A stretch of DNA of 23,058 nucleotides from a virus: positions 1 to 23,058 of the IMG/VR virus record IMGVR_UViG_3300035698_002929. The stretch is one strand, 5' to 3'. The translations under genes and the position numbers were made by a program. The notes under the pieces are model-generated. The model worked only from the letters and a program-made list of their open reading frames with translations, was not told where the DNA came from and ran no database searches. Each line of letters begins with the position of its first letter. The stretch's first letter is position 1. Below, in pieces: positions 11,154 to 23,058 of this stretch.

Positions 11154-12980
11154 ATGCAATTTAATAAGTCTGATATTTTTTATATAAATGGTAAACTTAG
11201 TAACTCTAGATTAAAAGAGAATTATTTAAAAACTAATGAGAGTGTGCTCTATTATAAAATAATAGAACATCATTCTCATTTTTTTGTTAAAGGTAAATTT
11301 ACATTTTCACAAAAAATATTTAATTATATAAACTCTATAAATACTATACAGTTATGTGATTGTAAAAAACCATTAACATTTAAAAACTTTACAAAGGGTT
11401 ATAGTAGTTTCTGCAGCACTAAATGTGCAGCTAATGATATAGGTGTAATTAAAAGAAGAAATGAATCCTCTAATTTTGATGATATTGTTAAAAAACGGAA
11501 AAATACAATGTTAAGCAGATATGGTGTTGACCATCAAATGAAGCTTAAGGATATTAAAGAAAAAGTTAAAGCGACGAATTTAAAAAAATATGGCGTTGAA
11601 AACCCTTACCAATCAGATAAGATAAAGGAAAAGATTAAAGCAACGAATTTAGAAAGATACGGCGTTGATAACGCATCTAAATCAAAGAAAGTAAAAGCTA
11701 AAACACTTAAGACTAATTTAGAAAAATATGGTACATCACATTCAAATTGTTTAGATAAAAATAAAGAAAAAGCTAAAAAGTCTAATTTAGAAAAATATGG
11801 CGTTGAATGTACATTACATACAGATAAGAATAAACAAAAAGTCAAAAATACTAACTTAGAAAAATATGGTGTTGAACATCATATGAAAAATAAACAGATA
11901 TCAAATAAAGTCAAAGTACAATATAATAGGAATTATATTAAAAATATTAATAAAACTTATAATATTAATGTAATTTCGCACGAAAAAGGAAAAATAACAA
12001 TTTTATGTGGCATATGTAAAACTGAATATACTTTACAAACACAGTTATTTAGATTAAGAATATCTAATAATGTAATACCTTGTCTACTTTGCAATCCTCT
12101 CAACTCATATCATATTAATAAAAGTGAAAATGATGTTTTTGAATTCATTAAATCTTTAGACTCAACATTAAACGTAGAACAATCTAATAGAACAATTCTA
12201 AAAGGTAAAGAACTTGATATTTATATCCCAGAAAAGAAATTAGCAATTGAATTTGATGGTATCTATTGGCATTCAGAATTATATAAAGATAAAAATTATC
12301 ACTTAAACAAAACACTAGAATGTAATAAAGAAGACATCCAACTTATTCATATCTTTGAAGATGAATGGAATTATAAACCTGACATTGTTAAATCACGGCT
12401 TAAAAATATTCTTGGCTTAACTGAAGCTAGAATTTACGGCCGGAAATGTGAAATTAAAGAAGTTAAATCTAAAGAAGCATATGTATTCTTAACTGAAAAT
12501 CATATACAGGGCCCTTCTATATCAAAAGTCAAATTAGGTCTTTATTATGAAGGTTCTTTAGTATCATTAATGACATTCGGTAATCTAAGGAAGGCTCTTG
12601 GACAAAAAAGTATAGAAGGTCATTATGAGCTCTTACGTTTCTGTAATAAACTTGATACAACTGTTATCGGCGGTGCTAGTAAACTTTTTAAATACTTCTT
12701 AAACGAATATACACCTAATGAAGTAATCAGCTATGCAGACCGTAGATGGTCTAGTGGTAATCTTTATACTCAGCTTGGATTTAAAGAAGATAAAGCAAGC
12801 AGACCTGGTTATTGGTATGTAATAGATGGAATTCGCGAATACAGATTTAAATATAGAAAGGATAAATTAGTAAAGCAAGGATTTGACGAAAATAAATCTG
12901 AGAAGGAAATAATGTTTGAACGTGAAATATATAGAATTTATGATTGCGGAAATTTGAAATATAGCTATACTCTTCAATAA
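11154..12980 (+). CDS. Free-standing homing-endonuclease-type protein (Vsr/PD-(D/E)XK-like) with 23-residue repeats
   Basis: 608 residues in order: an N-terminal region with a zinc site (C68, C70, C87, C91); six tandem 23-residue repeats with Y-G at 123, 146, 169, 192, 215 and 238, mostly 'nLeKYGVe'; a second zinc site (C285/C288, C310/C313); a nuclease-like core with ELDIYIPEKKLAIEFDGIYWH (353-373) and a later H383/K386; and a C-terminal domain (about 425-608). The core is of the Vsr-like/EDxHD type of phage homing endonucleases, in which an Asp, a Glu and a His bind metal. The repeats probably read DNA. The gene lies between sheath and tube genes that are neighbours in T4, as expected for a mobile free-standing endonuclease. 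It is more AT-rich in feel and less Asp/Gly-rich than its neighbours. Confidence 0.85.
   Translation: MQFNKSDIFYINGKLSNSRLKENYLKTNESVLYYKIIEHHSHFFVKGKFTFSQKIFNYINSINTIQLCDCKKPLTFKNFTKGYSSFCSTKCAANDIGVIKRRNESSNFDDIVKKRKNTMLSRYGVDHQMKLKDIKEKVKATNLKKYGVENPYQSDKIKEKIKATNLERYGVDNASKSKKVKAKTLKTNLEKYGTSHSNCLDKNKEKAKKSNLEKYGVECTLHTDKNKQKVKNTNLEKYGVEHHMKNKQISNKVKVQYNRNYIKNINKTYNINVISHEKGKITILCGICKTEYTLQTQLFRLRISNNVIPCLLCNPLNSYHINKSENDVFEFIKSLDSTLNVEQSNRTILKGKELDIYIPEKKLAIEFDGIYWHSELYKDKNYHLNKTLECNKEDIQLIHIFEDEWNYKPDIVKSRLKNILGLTEARIYGRKCEIKEVKSKEAYVFLTENHIQGPSISKVKLGLYYEGSLVSLMTFGNLRKALGQKSIEGHYELLRFCNKLDTTVIGGASKLFKYFLNEYTPNEVISYADRRWSSGNLYTQLGFKEDKASRPGYWYVIDGIREYRFKYRKDKLVKQGFDENKSEKEIMFEREIYRIYDCGNLKYSYTLQ
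11517..11930 (+). repeat. Six tandem coding repeats of 69 bases (23 residues)
   Basis: Within the endonuclease gene, codons for the Arg/Lys-Tyr-Gly core recur at exact 69-base spacing (residues 122, 145, 168, 191, 214 and 237). The DNA copies are only partly alike, so selection has kept the protein pattern and period rather than the bases. Start and end are approximate. Confidence 0.85.
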
Positions 12981-14945: not shown

Positions 14946-15998
14946 ATGAGCGAAGACGGAACACTAGATAAAGGAAAACTAGAAGAACAAGCTGAAGAGT
15001 ATATCAGGAATGTTGAAGAAGAAAGTGATATCTTTAATGATGCTGCAGATGAACAAAAAACTGGCCAGGAGGTTGGAGACAAGTATACTGAATCTGCAGA
15101 GAAGATAGAATCTTCTACTGGAAAGAAATCCTTAGGTAGAGTTGAAATGGGTAAAGGTGAAGGTAGTTCTGAGATGAATTCAGACATGTTATTAGGATGG
15201 CAAACGATTAATCCACTTGATTTACCATCACAAGGAAAATTCTATCCTCTTAATACAAAAATATTAATACGTTCTGCACATACATCAGAAATTAGACACT
15301 GGTCGACGTTGAATGAATACGATATGTTTGATATTGAAGATAAAGTAAATTATATCTTGCAGCATTGTGTTAAGGTTAACATACAGGGAAGAGTACTCAG
15401 TTGGAAAGATATATGTGAAGAAGATAAGCTTTACGTTCTATTATCTATACGCGATCTTACTTTCCCAAATCCAGAGAATAAGTTACAATTAACTAAGAAT
15501 TGTCCTGACTGTGGCGCGAAATGTGTAATTGATGTATCAAGAAATAATTTCAAATTAAATACTATCCCTGAAGATATTGAAAAATATTATGATTCAGATG
15601 AAAGATTATTTAATATTCAAACTAAATCTTACGGCGTTTTAAAAATGGCACCACCTAGTATTGGAGTAATGAGTGCAATTTCAAAATACATTCAAAGAAA
15701 AAGAGATAACGAATTACCTTGGGATAAATCTTGGGTTCAGATTGCACCTTATATTACATTAGAACATAGAGGATTTGATGATGAATCGATCTTTAACGGT
15801 GAAGTTGAATTTAAAGGATGGGACAATACTAAATACATGTTACATTATAGAATAGCAGAAAAGATGAAAATTGGTGTTCAGACGGACATGACAACGGACT
15901 GTAAAGAGTGCGGTGCTGAGGTCACTGCACTGATAGACTTTCCAGGGGGAATCAAAAGTCTTTTCATTGTTTCAGATATCTCTGGAGAATTACTTTAA
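14946..15998 (+). CDS. 26: Baseplate hub assembly protein, gp26-like, with split zinc ribbon
   Basis: 350 residues (T4 gp26 is 208). Residues 1-80 are acidic and probably disordered. From about 88 (INPLDLPSQGKFYPLNTKI) the pattern is that of the T4 gp26-type baseplate family (PF12322): 'LPS.G.fY', then helices. Two Cys pairs, C186/C189 (with C193) and C319/C322, form a zinc ribbon separated by about 130 residues. In T4 gp26 takes part in baseplate hub assembly. The last 20 codons overlap the next gene in another frame just before a probable tape measure, where long-tailed phages usually keep a frameshifted chaperone pair. Confidence 0.65.
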   Translation: MSEDGTLDKGKLEEQAEEYIRNVEEESDIFNDAADEQKTGQEVGDKYTESAEKIESSTGKKSLGRVEMGKGEGSSEMNSDMLLGWQTINPLDLPSQGKFYPLNTKILIRSAHTSEIRHWSTLNEYDMFDIEDKVNYILQHCVKVNIQGRVLSWKDICEEDKLYVLLSIRDLTFPNPENKLQLTKNCPDCGAKCVIDVSRNNFKLNTIPEDIEKYYDSDERLFNIQTKSYGVLKMAPPSIGVMSAISKYIQRKRDNELPWDKSWVQIAPYITLEHRGFDDESIFNGEVEFKGWDNTKYMLHYRIAEKMKIGVQTDMTTDCKECGAEVTALIDFPGGIKSLFIVSDISGELL

Positions 15999-16275
15999 GA
16001 ATAAGTTCTATTTATATGAACATTTAGGTATTCAGCCAAGCGAAATTGAAAAGATGTACTATTATGAGTTTCAATATACGATAAATAACTTGGTAGAACA
16101 TCTGAAGAAACAGAAGGACAGGAATAGTGAACAAGAAGAAGATCAATCTTCTCAGTATGCTAATATGTCTAAGAAGTTTACAAGTTCTCAAAGTAGTTCT
16201 AATGCTGGTAAGGTACCAAGTTTAGGTAAGGTGAATTCACCAAAGATGCCAAGCATTAGAATACCAAAATTATAA
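15937..16275 (+). CDS. 51: gp51-like baseplate assembly factor, possibly made by frameshift from the upstream gene
   Basis: The frame is open from 15937 and has no ATG before residue 30 when counted from the TTG at 15967. Recognisable protein begins at LENYFKNKFYLYEHLGI (15982 on), followed by QPSEIEKMYYYEFQYTINNLVEHLKK, a pattern like short gp51-type hub assembly proteins of T4-like phages. The C-terminal part (Ser/Gln/Lys-rich) looks disordered. Either translation starts at TTG 15967 or near it, or the protein is made as a C-terminal extension of the gp26-like product by a +1 or -2 shift at GGGGGA (15945-15950). The next ATG is 8 bases after its stop. Confidence 0.6.
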   Translation, partial: TFQGESKVFSLFQISLENYFKNKFYLYEHLGIQPSEIEKMYYYEFQYTINNLVEHLKKQKDRNSEQEEDQSSQYANMSKKFTSSQSSSNAGKVPSLGKVNSPKMPSIRIPKL

Positions 16276-16283
16276 TTGTATTA

Positions 16284-19205
16284 ATGTCTTTTATCAATGC
16301 GTTTAAAAATCCTTTTGAAAAATGGTCAGCTGACAACCAAAAGAAAATGGTTGATGAGCTCGTTGAGATTAAGGAATCAGTAAAGAGCGGAAAGCATACT
16401 GTAATAGATGTATTAGTAAGCATTGATAAAAAGATGGATTTATTAATTAAAAAGAAATCTCTTAACTTTAGTCTATTTGGTAGTAAGAACGATTCTTTAG
16501 ATGCTGGACAATTAACAGCAATAGGTATAACATCTGGATTAATGGGACAGGGACTAGGATTAATAGTCGCTGCAATTAAAAGTTTTTCGGAAATACCTGA
16601 AACTGCAGTTGATAAAATGTTTGAGACAATCGATAAATTACTTGAACGATTTAATAAAGCTGCCAAATCATTTAAGGTATTTGGGTTGATTCCCAAGATG
16701 CTTAGAAGATTAGGATTAGCAATCATATTATTCGGCTTAGCTTTAGTAGCTGCAGCCCCACTTTATATTATAGGAATAGTTCCCGTCATGATCTTGGCAG
16801 GAATATTTATGTTATTTGATAAGGTCTTTGGTAAAAAGACAATGAATACAATGAAATCTATGTCTAATGCAATGATGATGGCTGGAATAGCTATTATTGG
16901 CTTAGCTGTAGCATTAGCAATATTCGATAAGATCTCACCTCAGTTTTCTGATGTATTATTAATAATGGGAGGAGTAGTTCTAATAGGACTTGCCTTTGGT
17001 CTTATAGGAACTATGAGTGGTTTTATTAAGAAAGGCGCAATTGCTTTATTATGGGCTTCACTTTCTATAGTTGCATTGACAGTTGGTATGTTTGCCATGT
17101 CTAAAGCACTAGGTAAAGATTGGGAACAACTTGGATTTATAGCAGCTGCCATTACTGGCATCGGAGCTATCTTTGCATTAGCAGGAACAGTCGCTGTATT
17201 TATAGGATTAGGTGCTGCAGCAATGATAATTGCAGGAATTGGTTTAATTACAATTGCAATTGGTTTAAGAATGTTCTCTAAAATGAGCTGGGATCAAAAG
17301 AATACAGATTCACTTAAAGGTGCAATGGGAGCATTAGTTGATAGCTTTGCAATTAATCCTATCAAGTCATTAGGAATGCTTCTAGCAATTCCAGGATTTA
17401 TGGGAGCATCACTTGCATTAATGACAATATCTACAGGACTTGAAATGTTTAAAGATGTTAAATTTACTAAGAAGGATCAGGAATCATTAATGAATACCAT
17501 TCAAGGTATAGGTGCTGCGTTCTCTTCAGTAGGTAGTAAGTTTACATACGTTGATAAAAACGGTGGTAAAATTGAAGTATCACCATTCAATATAAGAGCT
17601 GGTATCTGGTCAGTCAGAAAATCTGGAAGAGTTATTAAAGAACTTGCATCAGGTATTAGAGAATGGGCAGATCTTGCATTATCAAATTCAGAAGTAACAT
17701 CTATTGTAGCAAGTATCACACATACATTAAATGCTATAAGAATTCCATTCGCTGAGATTGGAAAAACCTCAAAGAATAGAAAAGGTTTATTAGGTCTAAT
17801 TGGATTTAATCAAAATGAAGTAGAAGATGGAATTGAAGCAGTTGAAGATTCTGGTAAAGTATTAACTCAACTTGCAGATGGTATTAAGAAATGGTCTGAG
17901 CTTGCTCTTACTAAATCACAAACAAATACTATTACTACAAACATTGCTACAACATTAAACGTAGTAAGAGAATCATTCGGAGCAATAGGTGAACTTTCTA
18001 AAGATAGAAAAAGTGGTATTGCTGGATTCTTAGGAATGCGTCAGAATACTGTTGAAGAAGGTGTTGATGCCGTTAAAGAATCTGGAAGTACATTAGTATC
18101 TCTTGCAGAAGGTGTACAGAAATTTGCGAATTTAGAATTTACTGATCCTGTTACAGGTAAAGTAGTTAAAATGAATAAGGCCACTTTAGATAAAGTAACA
18201 GGTAATATTCAAAAGGTATTGAGTGTTGTAGGAGATGCATTTAAAGCAATAGGTGCAGGAGAAGCTGAAAGTGCAACTGGAGGATTCTTAGGTTTTGGTA
18301 AATCAGGTAACGTTGAAAAAGGTATGGATGCTGTTAAAGGCATAGGTACTGAATTGATCGGAATATCAAACAGCATTGAAATATTTGGAAGAATTGGTCA
18401 AAAGACAAAGGATAGTGAAGGTAACATAATGCCAGCATTGGATCTTGATGTTATTGGTAAAAATATTGATAGTATAATTACTGTAGTTGCAAAAGCTTTT
18501 GCAAAAGTAGGTTCAGGTGATATTGATGGTTTAGATCCTGATGATGTTGAAACAGGTATACAAGTATTAAGTGGAGTACAAGATAAATTAATGTCATTTG
18601 CGGAATTTGCTAACAGCATGTCTAAAGTTGGTAATCTAAGAACATTCTCAGCTAACACAGCACACTTTATATTAAATACTTTAAGAGCAGTTGGAGCAGC
18701 CGATAAGTTAGTTCAAGAATCTGATATCTCTATAATATCAAGAACAGGTGATGTATTAACTGAATGGGCCAGATCATCTAAGAAACTTAAAGGTTCTGCT
18801 AAGAGTTTAGCAAGCATTGCAGATAGCTTCGGTAAAATTAGAAAAGAAGTTAACGCATTTGATCCTGAATTACTTAAAGATACTAAAGCATTATTTGAAG
18901 CTATTGCTGTCATCTCGGATGGAAGTGGTGCAGATGATCTTGTTTCAAAATTAGGAGATGCATTAGGAGATACTCTTAATCGCCTTGCAGGTCTTATTGA
19001 AGACTTCGGCGGAAAAACTGAAGATGGTAATAACAAAATCGCAGCTGCACTTTCAAGTAATAATTCAGGTACAGTTTCATCTATTGATAATCAAGTTACT
19101 CTAGCAGTAGCAAGTGGACTTTCTGAAATTTCAGAAACTCTACAAGATATTGATTCTCAATTAAGATTAGGAATTAAAGTTAAGCCTCAGGAAAGTTTAA
19201 TTTAA
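16284..19205 (+). CDS. Probable tail tape measure protein
   Basis: 973 residues, the longest gene after the sheath. Residues about 1-60 are charged helix; about 85-105 Gly/Ile-rich; about 138-330 contain at least seven hydrophobic, Gly/Ala-rich helices (for example IILFGLALVAAAPLYIIGI), as in the membrane-penetrating part of many tape measures. From about 465 to 810, five helical repeats of about 70-90 residues recur, each with a 'I..tL..v...f..iG' core and mostly a 'v..Gi.av...g..L..la..i..wa.la' core. The position after the gp26/gp51 pair supports the call (T4 gp29 is 590 residues). It sets tail length and is expelled into the cell envelope on infection. T4 homology is not demonstrated. Confidence 0.7.
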   Translation: MSFINAFKNPFEKWSADNQKKMVDELVEIKESVKSGKHTVIDVLVSIDKKMDLLIKKKSLNFSLFGSKNDSLDAGQLTAIGITSGLMGQGLGLIVAAIKSFSEIPETAVDKMFETIDKLLERFNKAAKSFKVFGLIPKMLRRLGLAIILFGLALVAAAPLYIIGIVPVMILAGIFMLFDKVFGKKTMNTMKSMSNAMMMAGIAIIGLAVALAIFDKISPQFSDVLLIMGGVVLIGLAFGLIGTMSGFIKKGAIALLWASLSIVALTVGMFAMSKALGKDWEQLGFIAAAITGIGAIFALAGTVAVFIGLGAAAMIIAGIGLITIAIGLRMFSKMSWDQKNTDSLKGAMGALVDSFAINPIKSLGMLLAIPGFMGASLALMTISTGLEMFKDVKFTKKDQESLMNTIQGIGAAFSSVGSKFTYVDKNGGKIEVSPFNIRAGIWSVRKSGRVIKELASGIREWADLALSNSEVTSIVASITHTLNAIRIPFAEIGKTSKNRKGLLGLIGFNQNEVEDGIEAVEDSGKVLTQLADGIKKWSELALTKSQTNTITTNIATTLNVVRESFGAIGELSKDRKSGIAGFLGMRQNTVEEGVDAVKESGSTLVSLAEGVQKFANLEFTDPVTGKVVKMNKATLDKVTGNIQKVLSVVGDAFKAIGAGEAESATGGFLGFGKSGNVEKGMDAVKGIGTELIGISNSIEIFGRIGQKTKDSEGNIMPALDLDVIGKNIDSIITVVAKAFAKVGSGDIDGLDPDDVETGIQVLSGVQDKLMSFAEFANSMSKVGNLRTFSANTAHFILNTLRAVGAADKLVQESDISIISRTGDVLTEWARSSKKLKGSAKSLASIADSFGKIRKEVNAFDPELLKDTKALFEAIAVISDGSGADDLVSKLGDALGDTLNRLAGLIEDFGGKTEDGNNKIAAALSSNNSGTVSSIDNQVTLAVASGLSEISETLQDIDSQLRLGIKVKPQESLI

Positions 19206-19252: not shown

Positions 19253-19498
19253 ATGGCAAAACAATCACAACTCACATTTTTTGAATCTAAGATAATAGCT
19301 TTTACAAGATATTATTTTAATACTGGGATACTGCACGTTAAGTTCAATAACGGCAAGATATACGAATACTTTGATGTAACGTTAGCCTGCTATATCCAGT
19401 TGATTGCAGCTGAGTCAATAGGGTCAGCATTTCATAAAGTAATTAAGGCGAATTATGAAGGCGATTTAATCGCAGATATAAAACCAATAGATGGATAA
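19253..19498 (+). CDS. KTSC-domain small protein
   Basis: 81 residues. The run YYFNTGILHVKFNNGKIYEYFDV, then a helix (TLACYIQLIAAESIGSAFHKVIKANY), is the KTSC-domain pattern: 'Y....L.v.F..G..Y.Y..V......l..A.S.G..f...I...Y'. The domain is about 60 residues, occurs in phages and at the ends of some lysyl-tRNA synthetases, and has no settled function. Its last 8 bases overlap the next small ORF. Confidence 0.8.
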   Translation: MAKQSQLTFFESKIIAFTRYYFNTGILHVKFNNGKIYEYFDVTLACYIQLIAAESIGSAFHKVIKANYEGDLIADIKPIDG

Positions 19499-19649
19499 AG
19501 AAATAAAAAAATTAGAAGAAAGGCGTAAATTTCTCGTATCTGAGATAAACGCAGACGGTCATAACGATGGTTATATTGTAAGAGGTTTTAAAGAAGAACT
19601 TCAAGAATTAGAGCTAACTTTAAAAAATCTTAAAAATGGACAAGAGTAA
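19491..19649 (+). CDS. Small 52-residue coiled-coil-like protein
   Basis: ATG at 19491 lies inside the last codons of the KTSC gene, and the stop at 19647-19649 lies inside the start of the kinase gene: an overlap of 8 bases before and 14 after. Such a chain of overlaps suggests translational coupling and a real gene. The product has two charged helices (MDKEIKKLEERRKF and FKEELQELELTLKNLK) round a Gly/Asn turn, and might form a helical hairpin. No function is known. Confidence 0.6.
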   Translation: MDKEIKKLEERRKFLVSEINADGHNDGYIVRGFKEELQELELTLKNLKNGQE

Positions 19650-20121
19650 AAGAATAATATTATCTGGAAAAGCAGCATCAGGAAAAGATCATCTACGTAA
19701 AGTATATGAAAGTAGAGGTTTTAAATATGCCGTATCATATACTACAAGACCTCCACGAGAAGGTGAAGTAGAAGGTAAAGATTATCATTTCATTTCAGAA
19801 GATCAATTTAAAGAAATGGGACGCAATGATGAATGGTACGAATACGTTCCATTTAACGGTTGGTATTATGGTACATCTAAAGATCAATTTTATGGAGCAG
19901 ATCTATTTATCATGACTCCTAAGGGAATATCAAAAATAAATGATTATGATAGAAGGACTTCTTTTATCATTTACGTAGATATACCTGAACATACTAGAAG
20001 AGTCAGACTATCAGGTCGTGAGATGCTAGGGGATACACTTGATAGAAGACTTGAAGCCGACTATCACGACTTCAAACATTTCACAGACTTTGATCTCAGA
20101 GTTTGTAACCCTGATTTTTAA
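19636..20121 (+). CDS. Guanylate-kinase-like nucleotide kinase
   Basis: 161 residues, near the size of short guanylate kinases. The P-loop GKAASGKD (about residues 11-18) has Asp where Ser/Thr is usual, as in several phage nucleotide-monophosphate kinases. It is followed by SYTTRPPREGEVEGKDYHFIS (35-55), the GMP-binding motif of guanylate kinase, and WYEYVPFNGWYYGTS (about 67-81). The lid is represented by RRVRLSGRE. It would turn (d)GMP into (d)GDP for phage DNA synthesis. It starts inside the preceding small ORF. Its location among virion genes is unusual for a replication enzyme. Confidence 0.8.
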   Translation: MDKSKRIILSGKAASGKDHLRKVYESRGFKYAVSYTTRPPREGEVEGKDYHFISEDQFKEMGRNDEWYEYVPFNGWYYGTSKDQFYGADLFIMTPKGISKINDYDRRTSFIIYVDIPEHTRRVRLSGREMLGDTLDRRLEADYHDFKHFTDFDLRVCNPDF

Positions 20122-20123
20122 TA

Positions 20124-20576
20124 ATGCTAATATTTTCATATGGTTCTAATATGGATTTTGCACGTTTAAGCAAAAGAGTGCCATCTGCTAAATTTAAAAA
20201 CATTGGCTACGTAGATAGATACGTACTTGAATGTAATAAAATAAGTAAAGATGGTTCTGGCAAAGCCACTATATCATATACTGGTAATTTAAATGATATA
20301 GTGTGGGGCATTATATATGATATAAATGAAGATGAGAAATATAGACTTGATAAAGCTGAAGCTTTAGGTTATGGTTATAATGAAGACATGTTAGATGTTA
20401 ATATAGATGAAGATTTAGTTAAATGTCAAACTTATATAGCATCTGATAATTATTTAGATGATTCATTATTACCACATAAATGGTATAAAGATTATATAGT
20501 AAATGGAGCCAAGCAATTTAAATTACCTAAAAAATATATTAAAACATTAGAAAAACTTGAAACAAAGTTAAAATAA
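20124..20576 (+). CDS. Gamma-glutamylcyclotransferase (AIG2/GGCT)-like protein
   Basis: 150 residues. FSYGSNM (residues 4-10) is the substrate-loop motif of the family, VWGIIYDI (60-67) is the characteristic strand, and E79 in LDKAEALGYGY is at the position of the catalytic Glu of GGCT folds. Members open gamma-glutamyl amines or peptides as 5-oxoproline. The host substrate is unknown; in phages such genes are usually described only as 'gamma-glutamylcyclotransferase'. Its start is 2 bases after the kinase stop, so the two are in one operon. Confidence 0.75.
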   Translation: MLIFSYGSNMDFARLSKRVPSAKFKNIGYVDRYVLECNKISKDGSGKATISYTGNLNDIVWGIIYDINEDEKYRLDKAEALGYGYNEDMLDVNIDEDLVKCQTYIASDNYLDDSLLPHKWYKDYIVNGAKQFKLPKKYIKTLEKLETKLK

Positions 20577-22410: not shown

Positions 22411-23058
22411 ATGAAAGTTTGTATCGAATGCGGAAGAGAATATCAAGAAAGAAAAAATAATATAGGTTTAACTATTTGTGGAAAATGCTCAGGCCGTGCT
22501 AAAACAAAAGAACAAGTAAAAAAAGATATTGAAAATAAAACTTTTACTCGAGATTGCCCACAGTGCAATAATGAAATTGTATATCGAAATAAACATGTAC
22601 ATGCTACAGCAATTAAAACTAATAAGATATGTAAACCATGTTCGCTCTTAAACCATAATAAGCAAATGGGATTAGAAACTAGATTAGGGTTAAGGGAAAA
22701 TGGATTTAAAGGCAAAAAACATACTATAGAAACTAGAAAAATTTTATCTAACGCGGATAAAAGTTATTGTGCTAATCTTTCTTATGACTGGGTCCTAAAA
22801 GGTAAATATCATCCAATGTATGGCAAATCTTTATATGAGCTGATGGTTAATAAGCATGGTAAAATAATAGCAGATAAAAAATATAATAAAATAAAAAAAG
22901 ACCTATCGGCTAAATATACCGGTTCAGGTAATCCAATGTATGGGAAGCCTTCACCACAGGGAAGTGGAAATGGCTGGTCTGGATGGTATAAAGATTTTTA
23001 TTTTAGAAGTTTACATGAATTAAACTTTTTAATCATATGTGATAGATTCAAATTAGAT
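22411..23058 (+). CDS. Second homing-endonuclease-type protein, NUMOD3-like (partial)
   Basis: 216 codons to the window edge, still open. Zinc-ribbon-like pairs are visible: CIECG and CGKC near the N-terminus (C4/C7 with C24/C27), and CPQC with CKPC further in (about 50-80). Two NUMOD3-type motifs follow, HPMYGKS and NPMYGKP (about 130-175), then GSGNGWSGWYKDFYFRSLHELNFL, a start of a nuclease domain of the kind seen in PD-(D/E)XK/EDxHD phage homing endonucleases. It is probably free-standing, placed after the capsid-like gene with its own promoter-like motif. The catalytic core is beyond the edge. Confidence 0.75.
   Translation, partial: MKVCIECGREYQERKNNIGLTICGKCSGRAKTKEQVKKDIENKTFTRDCPQCNNEIVYRNKHVHATAIKTNKICKPCSLLNHNKQMGLETRLGLRENGFKGKKHTIETRKILSNADKSYCANLSYDWVLKGKYHPMYGKSLYELMVNKHGKIIADKKYNKIKKDLSAKYTGSGNPMYGKPSPQGSGNGWSGWYKDFYFRSLHELNFLIICDRFKLD

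Follow-up and report, generated by a model that had tools for sequence, protein, structure and literature searches.

How is the second of two overlapping frames translated when it has no start of its own? The window, i.e. the whole stretch of 23,058 nucleotides analysed here from the IMG/VR virus record IMGVR_UViG_3300035698_002929, raises this question between its tail tube gene and its tape-measure candidate. The gene order in the window is sheath (7879), tube (13075), an overlapping gp26-like and gp51-like pair (14946-16275) and then an ORF of 973 amino acids:

14946..15998, + strand: gp26-like ORF in the 0 frame, 350 aa, with a zinc ribbon (CxxC...CxxCG)
15937..16275, + strand: gp51-like +1 frame (the "T" part), open, at offset +1 to the gp26-like ORF
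16284..19205, + strand: 973-aa ORF, tape-measure candidate by its position and size only

The original prediction was that a programmed frameshift joins the two frames, and its description of the overlap is confirmed by the sequence: the frames overlap by 62 bases at offset +1, the second frame has no ATG before its recognisable, conserved part, and its first start-like codon is the TTG at 15967. Of the 74 loci in this family, 7 share the 62-base overlap with the window. In the loci with this overlap, including the window, a stop codon of the +1 frame lies directly upstream of the slip site described below. The 973-aa ORF at 16284..19205 had no informative match in family profile searches.

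Elsewhere in the window there is a homing-endonuclease-like gene between the tail sheath and the tail tube (11154-12980; DUF7487, weak MTES_1575), and a NUMOD3 homing-endonuclease-like gene after the Gp23-like capsid gene (22411-23058). The tape-measure candidate is separated from the capsid region by KTSC, guanylate kinase and gamma-glutamylcyclotransferase-like genes (19253-20576).

Conservation of the +1 offset

We studied the offset in two families from IMG/VR: the window's family (A2; 74 scorable loci, 44 representatives) and a second +1 family (A3; 79 scorable loci, 17 representatives). The gp51-like frame is at +1 in every scorable locus, i.e. 74/74 in A2 and 79/79 in A3, together 153/153. 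Each of the 15 other public relatives likewise has this frame at +1, continuing open into gp26; they comprise Lak phages, PAU, pT24, PTm1, MA9V, MaF61, large uncultured phages and IMG/VR contigs. Lak-B5 has a TAG in this frame, which is open only if the TAG is read as sense.

The original prediction had suggested an alignment of homologues to see if the open overlap and a G-run inside it are conserved. The open overlap is: the +1 frame is open across the last 20 gp26 codons in 43 of the 44 A2 representatives and in all 17 of A3, while the numbers expected when the protein is recoded with synonymous codons are 20.6 and 7.5, respectively. The G-run is not, as described below. The frame overlap is more than chance.

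The probable slip site

Three features around the start of the overlap are needed to locate the slip:

15934..15936, + strand: TAG, stop of the +1 frame directly 5' of the slip site, read from the sequence
15939..15942, + strand: UUU_C, putative +1 slip site, where Phe-tRNA on UUU would re-pair on UUC; the next codon is CAG (Q)
15945..15950, + strand: GGGGGA run, the site proposed earlier, not conserved

The Phe codon of the 0 frame at this site is TTT in 42/44 A2 and 17/17 A3 representatives (counts that ignore kinship), unlike in the rest of the A2 and A3 genes, where TTC is common. In the representatives of both families the following codon always begins with C, again without regard to kinship. 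When this codon encodes Arg it is CGN in 30 of 30 cases, compared with 23% CGN elsewhere in the same genes, where AGA is the usual Arg codon. When it encodes Pro in A3 it is CCC (17/17).

Over most of gp26 the synonymous codon identity is about 1.0-1.2 times the expectation, and at the 3' end it is about 2. Per column, the synonymous constraint climbs from the TTTC codon on, and from there both frames are constrained. Further, the TAG at 15934-15936 excludes slips earlier than UUU_C. Because of the conserved TTT with a C-first codon, the onset of the constraint and the upstream +1 stop, we place the site at UUU_C (15939-15942), so that the first +1 residue is Q (CAG). The predicted junction is ...LIDF-QGESKVF..., and not FPG or FPGG followed by ESKVF as first proposed; the corresponding peptide of the window would be ECGAEVTALIDFQGESK after a shift, versus ECGAEVTALIDFPGGIK without it.

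There are exceptions. Two loci (L044, L064) have TTC in place of TTT and are without a clear equivalent site, and two others (L008, L017) also lack a clear equivalent. Some genes carry further in-frame TTTC codons, so UUU_C alone is insufficient.

An SD-like element upstream of the site

Upstream of the slip site there is one further feature:

15917..15924, + strand: SD-like element TGAGGTCA (GAGG at 15918-15921, 17 nt before TTT), presumed stimulator

Across the +1 sites the SD-like sequence is GAGG, often in the form GGGGAGGTC or GAGGAGGTC, and the gap to the site peaks at 13-17 nt. A duplex with the anti-SD of -6 kcal/mol or lower, located 5-30 nt upstream, is present at 98% of the A2 sites and 100% of the A3 sites, versus 15% (A2) and 4% (A3) of the control positions. 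In the Chryseobacterium phages MA9V-2 and MA9V-1 (L010, L011) the UUU_C and the SD-like element are shifted downstream together within the last 21 codons of the gp26-like gene, and the gap is still 14 nt.

Only one A2 representative, L077, has a weak SD-like element (-2.7), and the same locus is the sole case among the 44 where the +1 frame is closed inside the overlap. Here, an ATG belonging to the gp51-like gene itself follows directly on the gp26 stop (L077:2330-2830). This single natural loss of the frameshift fits a role of the SD-like element, but does not prove it. The element probably delays or holds ribosomes at this point. A short spacing is a feature of the RF2 +1 site, which an element 17 nt away does not fit. 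A stimulatory 3' stem-loop at the +1 sites was rejected, the mean z being -0.4 and 0.3 in the two +1 groups.

Alternative explanations

The shift could take place elsewhere, or be a -2 shift, either at the G-run or at a CTT/ATT_TTC downstream, and we find both very unlikely. The GGGGGA is present at 15945-15950 as first described, and it permits re-pairing in the window; however, GGGGG is found near the site in only 4 of the 44 A2 representatives, and a slip at this run was rejected in favour of UUU_C, six bases upstream. A backward slip is attractive in that most A2 and A3 loci would allow TTC to re-pair -2 on TTT, and a long-spaced SD-like element is expected to favour slips in this direction. 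However, the NTT_TTC motif is missing in several lineages (Lak, pT24 and some A2 loci do not have it), the constraint on the +1 frame starts about 10 codons before it, and the -2 slip allowed for in the original prediction has no conserved re-pairing site; it was rejected as well. Slippage during transcription would suit AT-rich DNA, but the site has no conserved homopolymer long enough to be of use, and we give this explanation next to no credence.

It could also be that no frameshift is needed. In a sequence taken from a single virus contig, like the window, a chance overlap or a sequencing error might produce such a pair, but the same offset in all scorable loci of the two +1 families, and in divergent named relatives with isolates among them, already refutes this reading, and its probability is negligible. 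A start of the gp51-like protein at a non-ATG codon inside gp26 (TTG 15967 in the window), by coupling or reinitiation, deserves more attention, although we consider it unlikely. At the position of this TTG 27 of the 44 A2 representatives have an ATG, GTG or TTG, most A3 loci have ATG ATG nearby, and L077 uses its own ATG. However, the other 17 A2 representatives have no start codon at the position, and upstream of it the +1 frame stays open and under constraint as far back as TTTC, neither of which initiation needs. Further, more than 40 nt separate the SD-like element from the TTG. A +1 start in the window at normal spacing from this element would meet TGA/TAG at once: the TAG at 15934-15936 blocks +1 initiation from the element, and internal initiation from it was rejected for this reason. 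Where a real ATG is present, as in L077, both the SD-like element and the open +1 overlap are gone. A programmed shift into the +1 frame that joins the gp26-like and gp51-like genes, as originally predicted, is strongly supported by the comparative data.

Protein families and predicted structure

A shift at UUU_C would join 332 residues of the 0 frame to 110 residues of the +1 frame, giving an expected fusion product of 442 aa. In profile searches the 0-frame protein matches phrog_36717 (1.9e-27) and, weakly, phrog_150 "baseplate hub" (4e-4), and it scores 17.6 bits against the Pfam family T4_baseplate (PF12322), below the cut-off of 24.5. For the +1 frame there is a match to phrog_634 (gp51, baseplate hub assembly catalyst) at 1.8e-7, confined to profile positions 59-119 of 121. 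The fused profile of the window's family aligns with the fused cyanophage profile through the junction, over 264 columns (probability 95.7, E 9e-9), and the fused cyanophage profile in turn matches T4 gp51 across 222 columns (E 2.4e-5). When the fused A2 profile was compared with the single T4 gp51 sequence, the match was not significant over the length. A PDB sequence search found nothing relevant.

An AlphaFold model of the 0-frame protein of the window alone (mean pLDDT 80.8) matches viral T4-like baseplate hub proteins, with E-values of 1e-8 to 1e-11. When ranked by VIA-align, only among the PDB candidates of Foldseek, 2ob9, the tail assembly chaperone of HK97, comes first (Z 6.7, 89 of 107 residues, rmsd 3.7), and the next row has a Z of 3.4; Foldseek alone gives 2ob9 an E-value of 3.3. 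A Z of 6.7 is below 8 and can reflect a common arrangement, so the match of the model is support, not proof.

A low-complexity tail, with a repeated P-K-(F/M/L)-type motif at its C-terminal end, frequently closes the gp51-like part, as seen in the window (16230-16275) and in second-frame products of relatives; this may be a short binding peptide. In published annotations the start of the gp51-like protein is put at a late ATG (L010:5833-6009, L014:5989-6126, L017:5989-6111), which removes its most conserved part.

T4 and cyanophage relatives

In T4, both gp26 (208 aa) and gp51 (249 aa) match the full length of PF12322 (8.8e-64 and 3.9e-52), and they resemble one another (2e-6). Only T4 gp51, and not T4 gp26, has the extra C-terminal part with the match to phrog_634. 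Since gp51 has both the full PF12322 match and a phrog_634 part of its own, it is an in-frame "short + T" protein. In domain order the short form corresponds to gp26 and the long form to gp51; in T4 the two are separate genes on opposite strands, while here they are one gene and a +1 frame. T4 gp26 also matches the gp28 family phrog_1140 (9e-4; L019:5803-8882, T4 genes 26, 51 and 28), and gp28 may be a third paralogue.

In cyanophage-type IMG/VR loci the gp51 frame is at -1 (77/77), and T_TTT_TTC (U_UUU_UUC) is found in the last gp26 codons (80/80). In Straboviridae, the family of T4 itself, Vibrio nt-1 and Aeromonas Ahp1 are also at -1 with T_TTT_TTC; Rhizobium Y68 carries T_TTT_TTG and HTVC008M carries T_TTT_TTT. 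The gp51 frame is at -1 without a clear heptamer in the Ackermannviridae phage CBA120 and in Vibrio phage K469, the latter with ATG codons at the gp26 stop. The cyanophage, Vibrio nt-1 and Aeromonas loci resemble the window in that a homologous pair is joined near the gp26 stop and followed by a long ORF, and the cyanophage loci also have an SD-like element upstream. However, the cyanophage shift is -1 at U_UUU_UUC, with an SD gap of 7-10 nt, some 3' RNA structure (z -1.8) and a slip position in the protein several codons off that of the +1 families.

Tail assembly chaperone genes of T4-like phages were reportedly identified by Vladimirov et al. 2022 (Virology 566:9-15). In the passages that refer to that study, the PRFect paper cites it for short and long chaperone genes that are separate in some T4-like phages (PMC10885494), and the 2025 Adele paper for poly-T -1 slippery signals in T4-like phages (PMC12846349). 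Going by these citing passages, the remark in the original prediction that no such report was known for a gp26/gp51 pair is out of date, and the split of the short and long forms of T4 into separate genes was apparently already reported in 2022. In a 2010 review gp26 and gp51 are described as hub assembly chaperones, with gp51 absent from the final particle (PMC3004832). In the open-access literature we found no report of a +1 chaperone frameshift on UUU_C in this T4-related branch, nor of the SD-like element at 13-17 nt.

Other frameshift systems

Frameshifted G/GT chaperones are widespread, and most long-tailed phages have some form of them; a 2016 review treats T4 as an exception and the haloarchaeal myovirus HSTV-2 as a probable +1 case (PMC5009743). 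The locus resembles lambda gpG/gpGT, Mu (-2) and HSTV-2 in having two products with a common N-terminal part and a pair upstream of the tape measure (PMC5009743), but the slip direction and the site differ, and no sequence similarity to them is shown here. In influenza A PA-X the P-site Phe-tRNA also slips on UUU_C, with CGN next as in the commonest A2 form (PMC3498833). However, the gene is unrelated and the E-site codon is another one, and the shift predicted here would involve bacterial ribosomes and an SD-like element.

Proposed mechanism and its meaning

Taken as a prediction from sequence comparison and a structural model, the locus very probably encodes a two-form tail assembly chaperone of the G/GT type made by a +1 frameshift at UUU_C. 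This reading draws on the conserved offset, the conservation of the slip site and the SD-like element, the constraint on both frames, the colinearity of the fusion and the similarity in fold; from these we infer that the frameshift occurs, how efficient it is, what the SD-like element does and that the products are chaperones. Most ribosomes would make the short gp26-like protein of 350 aa. With peptidyl-tRNA-Phe on UUU (15939-15941) and a slow C-first codon in the A site, a minority would slip +1 to UUC and go on in the gp51-like frame, producing a 442-aa long form with the architecture of T4 gp51 and lambda gpGT. The conserved SD-like element upstream would slow or hold the ribosome at the slip site.

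More tentatively, and with somewhat less than even confidence, we suggest that an SD-like element, unusually placed at a distance of 13-17 nt, drives the +1 shift on UUU_C, that the chaperone family uses +1, -1 and duplication for the same two proteins, and that the ratio between the long and the short form could depend on the availability of the anti-SD. The named relatives of the +1 phages mostly infect Bacteroidota, and Bacteroidota hide the anti-SD from most mRNAs.

Such a frameshift would add a large branch of T4-related phages, mostly uncultured, to those that use tail-assembly frameshifting. The +1 direction has been missed by annotation pipelines, which in several published genomes start the second half at a late ATG. 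The many natural sequences, with one natural loss and one co-displaced site, are material for studying how a +1 slip is stimulated. Further, one and the same chaperone pair would have changed its decoding, being made by a +1 shift, by a -1 shift or from two separate genes.
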